A stretch of DNA of 61,230 nucleotides, taken from Thermodesulfobacteriota bacterium. GTDB taxonomy: Bacteria > Desulfobacterota > Desulfobulbia > Desulfobulbales > JBFMBH01. A model generated the notes under the pieces. The model worked only from the letters and a program-made list of their open reading frames with translations, did not search any database and was not told the DNA's origin. The first letter of the stretch is position 1; each line of letters begins with the position of its first letter. This document shows, piece after piece, positions 49,657-52,370 of the stretch. The position numbers and the translations under genes were made by a program. Location of the stretch: NCBI GenBank assembly GCA_040755095.1, contig JBFMBH010000008.1:1-61230 (forward strand). The letters are read 5' to 3'.

Positions 49657-50181
49657 ATGAAGGACTGCTGCCCGTACTGGGACCTCCGCCGCCATGACTG
49701 TATGATGACCGGTGCCGGGGTGTTCATCCCCCTGCCGGACCACATCGACGCCTTCTGCCGCACGCTCGAGTTCGCCTCCTGCAAGCATTTCCGCCGCAGC
49801 TGTGAGCTGCAGCGGGCCCGGGCCGAGGAGCGGGGCATCCTGTTCACCGACGGCCGGCGCCGCTACCCCCGGCTGCCCAGCCGGGTGAGCGTTGCTCTTG
49901 CCGCCGCCAATGGGAACGGCCAGGGCCAGATCCTCGCTGACCAGGCCCATACGGTGGATCTGTCCATCGGCGGCATGCGGGTCGAGACCCCCACCTCGCT
50001 GCCGGCGGAGAAGATGGTGCTGTTCACCTTCGGTGAGGGGTTCGCCCGGCCTGCCTTCCAGGGGCTGGGGCAGATCCGCTGGGCCGATCGGGTCCCCGAC
50101 GGTACCTTCCAGGCCGGGGTGGCGTTTCTGGACTATCAGACCAGCCAGGCCGTGAGCCAGCACCTGGGATTGGCCAGCTGA
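49657..50181 (+). CDS. PilZ protein with N-terminal cysteine cluster
   Basis: 174 residues from the ATG at 49657. The first ~55 residues carry seven Cys (MKDCCPYWDLRRHDC, then CRTLEFASCKHFRRSC), suited to a zinc or iron-sulfur site. The C-terminal PilZ domain has RxxxR in GRRRYPRLPSR and D-x-S-x-x-G in VDLSIGGMRVET, both intact, so c-di-GMP binding is expected. A combined metal/redox and c-di-GMP input would be unusual. Follows the sigma-54 activator by 121 bases and may share its transcript. Confidence 0.82.
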   Translation: MKDCCPYWDLRRHDCMMTGAGVFIPLPDHIDAFCRTLEFASCKHFRRSCELQRARAEERGILFTDGRRRYPRLPSRVSVALAAANGNGQGQILADQAHTVDLSIGGMRVETPTSLPAEKMVLFTFGEGFARPAFQGLGQIRWADRVPDGTFQAGVAFLDYQTSQAVSQHLGLAS

Positions 50182-50383: not shown

Positions 50384-51937
50384 TCAGAACCCCATCCCGG
50401 CCAGCATCCGGTTGACGGTGTCCTGGTCCAGGATCCCTTTCTCCCCCACGGCCTCGCCGGACAGACCGCCCATGAGGTCGTCCACGTCCTTCTGGGCCAG
50501 GGCCTTGCTCTCCTCCACGGTCAGGCCCCGGTTCTGCTCCCGGTTCTTGAGCTGGGAGCCGAAGGAGACGACGATGGCCAGGAGCTGGACCTCGAAATCG
50601 GTCAGCAGCTTGATGATCTTCATGATCTGCTGGCCGGACAGATCCTGAAAGCTCAAGGTCTCGAGGATGCGGGCCACATCCTCGCTGATGCCGGCCACCA
50701 TGCCGAAGGCCGCCCCCACCTTGTCCAGGATCTCGTCCCGCGCCTCCCGCGTCATGGGCGCGTAGGCGAAGGTGGCGGGAGCCGACTCGCTGCCCACCGC
50801 CTCCCGGTCGATCATGCCGGCCAATCGCTTGAGGCTGCGCCCCAGAAGGTCATCCAGGTCCTGGAGGCGGCTGTCCGAGGCCTGGATGCCCTCCTCGGCT
50901 GCCGCCGCCATCTGGCCGGCGGCCGGCACCAGGGGCGGCATTTCGATAGGCAGGGTGCTGTCCAGGAAGATGGAGGCCCGGTTCTCCTTCATCTTGCCCA
51001 CCAGCTTGCGGAAGGCCTCCGCCTGGCAGGCCTCGGCCAGCACATCCAGCAGGCTGTCCAGGGGGATGTTCAGAAAGTTGTCCCCGTCGGGAGCCATTCC
51101 TGCGGCCACGGCATTCATGCCGCCCTGGAAGGTCTCCGTCACGAAGATCTCCGCCGCCTTCTGGCGGGCGGTGCTGAGATGCTTCTTGACCCCCTCGTTG
51201 GTGCAGAACTCGTACAGGGTCTGGAAGATGACATCCAGCTGGAAATCCAGGCGGTCGGCGGCGGGCATGGGAGCCGCCGGCTCGCCGGGGGTGCGCAGGG
51301 AGGCGATGATGCCCCTGGCTTCCTGCGCCAGGCCCCGCAGCTCCGCCAGCTCCGTCCCCAGGGACGATGGCACCGGTGCGACGGCATAAAGCTCGCCCTC
51401 GGGCAGCTCCTGATCCCGGAAGGCGTGGTGGTCCTTGAGATGGGAGAGCAGATCCCGGGCCGCGATCGTCTCCCTTTGGATCTTCTCCACCGAGTCCATG
51501 ATCTCCATGGTGGCCCGCTCGGTCATCTCGACGATGTCCTTGAGCTGGCTCTTGGCGGTCTCCAGCTTGTCACCGGCCTCGTCCAGCTGGGCCCGCTTCA
51601 GCCGCCGGTCCTCGGCAGGGATGGTCATGAGGGTGCTGGAGAGCTTGCGCGCCAGGCCGCCGATGTCCCGGTAGAGATCGGTGGAGATGTCCTTGTAATA
51701 GGACTCCTCGGCAAAGCCGGTCGGCTCGGGCTCGGGAGCCGGAGCAGGCGGCGGTGGCGGTGGGACCGGCGGCGGCGCGGCCGGGGGCTCAGCGGCCAGG
51801 ATCCGCTCCACGACGCGGGTGGCGCTGGACTCCTGCTCGGCCACCACGGTGATGTGGTAGATCACATCGGTGGTCGCGATCCGGAAGGAGCCGGAGGTGA
51901 TCTCCAGGAAGACCTCGGGCTTGTTCGCCGCAGGCAT
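50384..51937 (-). CDS. CheZ-like protein phosphatase with large insertion
   Basis: 517 residues from the ATG at 51937, with GGGGGGAGGG upstream. An N-terminal ~48-residue beta segment (EVFLEITSGSFRIATTDVIYHITVV) and a Pro-rich linker (51-72) precede the first CheZ helix (LYRDIGGLARKLSSTL ... AKSQLKDIVEMTERATMEIMDSVE, about 88-155). The second CheZ helix, with the catalytic FQDLSGQQ at 430-437 and the VQLLAIVVSFG continuation, comes only after about 250 further residues, where E. coli CheZ has a short turn. The tail has two copies of a CheY-binding-like peptide, QKDVDDLMGGL and the terminal TVNRMLAGMGF. Expected to dephosphorylate a CheY-like protein. No che gene is nearby; a PilZ gene lies 52 bases upstream on the same strand. 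Confidence 0.8.
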   Translation of the reverse strand: MPAANKPEVFLEITSGSFRIATTDVIYHITVVAEQESSATRVVERILAAEPPAAPPPVPPPPPPAPAPEPEPTGFAEESYYKDISTDLYRDIGGLARKLSSTLMTIPAEDRRLKRAQLDEAGDKLETAKSQLKDIVEMTERATMEIMDSVEKIQRETIAARDLLSHLKDHHAFRDQELPEGELYAVAPVPSSLGTELAELRGLAQEARGIIASLRTPGEPAAPMPAADRLDFQLDVIFQTLYEFCTNEGVKKHLSTARQKAAEIFVTETFQGGMNAVAAGMAPDGDNFLNIPLDSLLDVLAEACQAEAFRKLVGKMKENRASIFLDSTLPIEMPPLVPAAGQMAAAAEEGIQASDSRLQDLDDLLGRSLKRLAGMIDREAVGSESAPATFAYAPMTREARDEILDKVGAAFGMVAGISEDVARILETLSFQDLSGQQIMKIIKLLTDFEVQLLAIVVSFGSQLKNREQNRGLTVEESKALAQKDVDDLMGGLSGEAVGEKGILDQDTVNRMLAGMGF

Positions 51938-51989
51938 GTTCTGCACCCTCCCCCCTCGGGTTGTCTCCCCGCCCATACGCCTCGATGGC

Positions 51990-52370
51990 TTACAGCCGGA
52001 TCCGGCCGGAAAAGCGCACCGCCACCTCGGCGTGACCATTCTGCTGCCCGCTGGCCGTCACCCGCAGGACCTGGCCGATAACCTTGAGAACGCCGATCTC
52101 GGACTGGCTTGGCCGCGGCTGCCAGTCGTCCTCCTGCTCGGCCCAGCCGGGAAACTCCATCCGGAGAATGAGCTGCATGCCTTGCCGGACATCCCGGGCG
52201 GTCAGGAAGCGCAGGCCCCCGCCGCCAAGATCGACGACCACCCCCTCTCCTGACCAGGACTCGGCCCCAAGGTCCCACAAGGGCGAAAAACGAACCTTGA
52301 GATCCTTGCGCACCCGGGTGTGCCGCCGTCGCTCCTCGGGTCCTCTTTCCGGCTCCTGGGAGATCTTCAT
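51990..52370 (-). CDS. PilZ-domain protein
   Basis: 126 residues. PilZ signature R-motif in ERRRHTRVRKDLKVRFSPL and second motif DLGGGGLRF, where Gly replaces the Ser of D-x-S-x-x-G; binding of c-di-GMP may be weakened. Strands VIGQVLRVTASG and AEVAVRFSG complete the barrel. Start codon at 52370 after a ribosome-site-like GAACTCAG-poor context, so the exact start is less sure. Transcribed towards the CheZ-like gene 52 bases on; the two are probably co-expressed, joining c-di-GMP sensing to a CheY-type phosphatase. Confidence 0.78.
   Translation of the reverse strand: MKISQEPERGPEERRRHTRVRKDLKVRFSPLWDLGAESWSGEGVVVDLGGGGLRFLTARDVRQGMQLILRMEFPGWAEQEDDWQPRPSQSEIGVLKVIGQVLRVTASGQQNGHAEVAVRFSGRIRL

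Follow-up and report, generated by a model that had tools for sequence, protein, structure and literature searches.

Two main intracellular signals on flagellar motors are c-di-GMP and CheY~P. The locus described here raised the question of what a much enlarged CheZ-like protein does beside a PilZ-domain protein, and whether such a pair could connect the two signals. Two minus-strand genes spanned positions 50384-52370 of the window, i.e. the whole stretch of 61,230 nt that was analysed. The cheZ-like gene (P0001, 517 aa; 50384..51937, minus strand) was read from an ATG at 51937 to a stop ending at 50384, with the Shine-Dalgarno sequence GGGGGGAGGG just 5' of the start. The listed ORF start at 52039 was rejected as an over-extension. 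The PilZ-domain gene (126 aa; 51990..52370, minus strand) ended 52 nt upstream of cheZ. Scans for Shine-Dalgarno and promoter patterns were uninformative. The initial annotation had placed a PilZ gene directly upstream on the same strand and had noted that no chemotaxis gene was near, and both statements held: the upstream protein matched Pfam PilZ, no chemotaxis genes were among the nearest neighbours, no flagellar gene was seen nearby and the 61,230 nt of the window contained no motAB. A second PilZ gene with a canonical DLSIGG motif (49660-50181, plus strand) was convergent with the cheZ 3' end; L048 was the single further named locus where a relative was found.

The CheZ family (PF04344) was recognized by Pfam in both halves of the 517-aa protein (57.5 bits against a cut-off of 30.7, E 2.2e-15), as two stretches approximately 235 residues apart. 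These stretches corresponded to hairpin helix 1 (residues 108-168; 51434..51616, minus strand) and helix 2 (residues 397-468; 50534..50749, minus strand). In CheZ the hairpin is antiparallel and builds a dimeric four-helix bundle; both long helices were also predicted in the full-length model, which was poor as a whole (pTM 0.32). The DxxxQ active site lay within SFQDLSGQ, and the motif FQDLSGQ (residues 430-436; 50630..50650, minus strand) contained D432 and Q436, which were invariant in 37 aligned sequences. Since the active site was intact, phosphatase activity towards CheY~P is expected for this protein, hereafter called long CheZ.

CheY-binding-like sites were scored along the protein with a matrix derived from the tails of eight CheZ proteins that do not belong to the long-CheZ family, and the scores were compared with those of 2000 shuffles. 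The best site was peptide 1 (residues 482-492; 50462..50494, minus strand) with 15.2 bits, a value reached by the best site in 0.25% of the shuffles. Peptide 2 (residues 505-517; 50387..50425, minus strand) was the second-best site and was weak alone, as its 8.1 bits were reached in 9.9% of the shuffles. Two sites of at least 8.1 bits occurred together in only 0.6% of them. Among 36 full-length relatives, A481, Q482, V485 and D486 were invariant around peptide 1, and L503, D504, Q505, V508, N509, L512, G516 and F517 around peptide 2. Peptide 1 kept AQxxVD and was weaker elsewhere; peptide 2 was nearly invariant.

The N-terminal part consisted of a front domain (residues 1-50; 51788..51937, minus strand) and a Pro-rich linker (residues 51-75; 51713..51787, minus strand; pLDDT <50). 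The low-confidence model of the front domain showed one helix and three strands within residues 8-48, with the Pro-rich segment after them, and the domain was conserved across the family, including variants without the CheZ active site. The architecture first annotated was confirmed. The hairpin was split as claimed, with about 235 rather than about 250 residues between the two stretches and an insert of about 220 residues, the short beta domain and Pro-linker were present ahead of CheZ, and the two putative CheY-binding peptides proposed at the end were the same two that the matrix ranked highest.

The ~220 additional residues were placed at the tip of the CheZ hairpin. The inserted domain (residues 226-340; 50918..51262, minus strand) was modelled confidently when taken alone (pLDDT 90, pTM 0.81). 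Because the two halves of its alignment matched each other (hhalign probability 96.9%, E 1.3e-10), the insert was regarded as a duplicated helix-helix unit. A PDB fold search with the insert model gave nothing at E<=0.001 (best 0.31), a search with the full-length model returned long-helix noise only, and Pfam assigned no consistent family to 61 inserts. An EF-hand identity was considered and rejected: the profile matches were weak (E 0.02 and up), the fold search gave no backing, and the D284-S295 loop, inspected by eye, was without a calcium-binding pattern.

The position of the insert was transferred from a phmmer alignment to E. coli CheZ (PDB 1kmi), where query residues 154 and 420 corresponded to E. 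coli residues 77 and 131. By ungapped stepping along the helices, query 174 fell at about E. coli 97 and query 397 at about 108, so that by this transferred alignment the insert stood in place of residues ~97-108, the apical loop. The apical loop of the E. coli protein, with Phe97 and Trp98, binds CheA-short and is the anchoring site, and residues 70-133 are enough for the polar position of CheZ (PMC7750401). As the hairpin-tip position matched the apical loop, the insert appeared to occupy the anchoring site of the E. coli protein. Two relatives (L079, L081) were without the insert; their front domain, hairpin and tail were retained, and PilZ lay upstream of them. In a tree calculated without the insert columns, these two, whose rows were gappy, nested in an insert-bearing family, suggesting that the absence was a loss, likelier than an ancestral state. 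Several insert-bearing proteins had no PilZ. The insert and PilZ were therefore not strictly linked, and the insert need not be a dock for PilZ.

The 126-aa neighbour matched Pfam PilZ (PF07238) with E 1.9e-5 and 25.4 bits against a cut-off of 22.5. Its RxxxR motif was present, and the [DN]xSxxG region read DLGGGG, with Gly for Ser; relatives had a mixture of S and G. Among the PilZ proteins beside long cheZ, RxxxR was found in 38 of 39 and [DN]x[SG]xGG in 37 of 39. A survey of gene neighbourhoods, as suggested in the initial annotation, was carried out for the order Desulfobulbales. When only genomes with enough upstream sequence were counted (n=31), pilZ was the direct same-strand upstream neighbour of long cheZ in 24, representing all 11 testable families. 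It was missing in the other 7 and in most sampled families outside the order, where an upstream pilZ was found in family f48. Besides this gene, the window's own genome had 18 PilZ matches. With only about 19 PilZ genes among some 4000, chance adjacency was negligible, and so durable a pairing of the genes supported the view that PilZ and long CheZ are functionally linked. An apparent PilZ fusion in the N-terminal extensions of L064, L065, L068 and L069 was rejected, as it read as an upstream frame with a later ATG. In family f94 (L071, L072), an ORF of 110-115 aa occupied the PilZ position, and that of L071 had no Pfam match.

Further, motA was found upstream of long cheZ in ten genomes of the order (G002, G012, G015, G023, G029, G034, G042, G045, G049 and G056; families f3, f6, f8 and f13). 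In nine of these motB was also present, and the tenth ended at a contig edge. Four named loci (L034, L036, L040 and L048) had an upstream motA too. Pfam confirmed MotA_ExbB and OmpA/MotB_plug in the neighbours of relatives. In f13 the motA gene was ~3.6 kb from long cheZ, and motA could adjoin long cheZ directly where PilZ was missing. This linkage to motB-motA in the relatives suggests an association with the flagellar motor. In family f21 (L137, L138), motA-motB lay on the downstream side, ~2.7 kb from the long cheZ start.

The distribution of the family was analysed in the same order. Matches were found in 34 of 58 genomes, one of them to short CheZ only, and 22 loci were identified when named genomes were scanned. 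The 37 full-length sequences aligned over their whole length, the relatives having 42-50% identity to the window protein. Further full-length members in other families emerged when 297 genomes of the phylum were searched with a profile. FliM matches of the order fell into a first grade with E<1e-50 and a second with E between 1e-37 and 1e-25, and this split was drawn after the values had been seen. With the split, 31 of the 58 genomes had both long CheZ and FliM of the first grade, 24 had neither, and 2 and 1 were discordant (Fisher p 6e-13; 5e-12 without G056, which was counted as FliM-bearing and had fliM split over contigs; the statistics ignore kinship). For any FliM the value was 1e-4, again ignoring kinship. 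The window's own genome contained one FliM, 17 CheW and three CheX matches, and no other CheZ by Pfam or the short-CheZ profile.

Some members of the family had no active site. Relatives with the front domain and the insert were found in six genomes of f6 and one of f10, and FQDxxGQ was absent from the eight full proteins that were read: five from f6, one from f10 and two from g79, a genus in another family. All five f6 proteins had PilZ upstream and ended in SQDDIDRLL, a CheY-tail-like end (SQDDIDRLLEELG). Such an end was kept in g79, and the f10 tail was degraded. Pfam found no CheZ at all in the f6 and f10 genomes. These proteins indicated that the front domain, the insert and mostly the tail can persist without the catalytic motif. 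Since eight genomes keep the protein without FQDxxGQ, phosphatase activity is not what it is retained for in every case. Such natural losses set CheY binding apart from CheY dephosphorylation.

Based on these comparisons, long CheZ was considered most likely to be a flagellar-motor CheY~P phosphatase or binder, with the neighbouring PilZ protein as its connection to c-di-GMP. It was proposed that the tail peptides would recruit CheY~P and that D432 and Q436 of the hairpin would catalyse its dephosphorylation. The duplicated insert, replacing the anchoring apical loop, would most likely direct the enzyme to another address, probably the motor or stator or their vicinity. The PilZ protein would most likely sense c-di-GMP and change the position or activity of long CheZ, presumably by contact, so that high c-di-GMP would lower local CheY~P and reduce direction switching. 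In its full form, with pilZ and long cheZ as a conserved flagellar module and a phosphatase at a new address modulated by PilZ and c-di-GMP, this reading was preferred tentatively, at somewhat less than even confidence. The initial annotation had suggested a phosphatase bringing a CheY-like regulator under c-di-GMP control. The lasting PilZ-CheZ adjacency and the intact active site bear out part of that suggestion, and direct control by c-di-GMP is putative.

The motAB linkage would also suit a conventional flagellar CheZ whose address domain is particular to the lineage, co-transcribed in a motility operon with a PilZ protein that acts separately as a YcgR-like brake on MotA/FliG. YcgR, a PilZ protein, acts with c-di-GMP on MotA/FliG and gives a CCW bias (PMC12713396), a precedent for this arrangement, and the direct motA neighbours where PilZ is missing agree with it, as does the loose association of PilZ with the insert. 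However, the PilZ-CheZ pair outlasts other neighbours, motAB included, in most families, and it persists even in proteins without the CheZ active site, which left the separate brake a possible but doubtful explanation. Alternatively, the main job of long CheZ might be to bind or position CheY, as a c-di-GMP-linked adaptor with catalytic activity in most lineages and a solely structural role in some. The f6, f10 and g79 proteins retain the front domain and insert, f6 and g79 have the CheY-tail-like end, f6 keeps PilZ, and no Pfam CheZ is found in f6 and f10 genomes. Yet every complete member sampled outside these three groups has FQDLSGQ, and such an adaptor was judged improbable. A target in another system (pili, matrix), i.e. 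a stand-alone CheY-like regulator instead of flagellar CheY, would fit the lack of chemotaxis genes near the window copy and the many CheW matches of its genome, which probably has several pathways. Against this stand the motAB linkage and the co-occurrence with one FliM type, and it was considered very improbable.

The preferred coupling of long CheZ to c-di-GMP through PilZ could also extend over the phylum as a junction of c-di-GMP and CheY, with PilZ directly controlling a motor-anchored CheZ that bears the new duplicated domain and in some lineages is a non-catalytic CheY binder. Such a general form was regarded as rather unlikely; if true, c-di-GMP would set CheY~P at the motor. In the papers that were searched, no pairing of a CheZ phosphatase with a PilZ protein was found described. 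The conserved PilZ-CheZ pair, often near motAB, makes the link between c-di-GMP and CheY~P directly testable, and the insert suggests a route for CheZ to gain a new address at the hairpin tip.

Long CheZ shared a predicted two-helix hairpin, DxxxQ and a putative C-terminal CheY-binding peptide with E. coli CheZ, whereas the ~220 residues at the tip, the front domain, the second tail peptide, the PilZ neighbour and, in relatives, the motAB neighbours were additional. The pilZ-cheZ pair resembled the YcgR-type flagellar brake in that a PilZ protein is linked with control of the flagellar motor. Unlike YcgR, the PilZ protein had a single PilZ domain and was paired with a cheZ gene; Pfam found PilZ only in the 126-aa protein and no YcgR N-terminal domain ahead of it. 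A c-di-GMP-activated CheZ would, by lowering CheY~P, push in the same CCW direction as YcgR. At 203-223 aa (alignment A4), the short CheZ found in the order shared DxxxQ and had one CheY tail, but both the insert and the front domain were absent. It had strong matches in 15 of 58 genomes, none being the window's genome, and short and long CheZ coexisted in several genomes. The DxxxQ of the short form, noted at L086, L090, L094 and L095, lay in ASQSYQDVARQ instead of FQDLTGQ. CheZ proteins of other families of the phylum (L100-L104, 438-478 aa) likewise combined CheZ with an add-on domain, but differed from long CheZ by an uninterrupted hairpin, a single tail and an unrelated extension. That extension was N-terminal and 230-270 aa long, and Pfam named only CheZ in these proteins. 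Two further proteins (L083, L084) had CheZ with an N-terminal extension of ~140 residues and a weak Ppx_C match.
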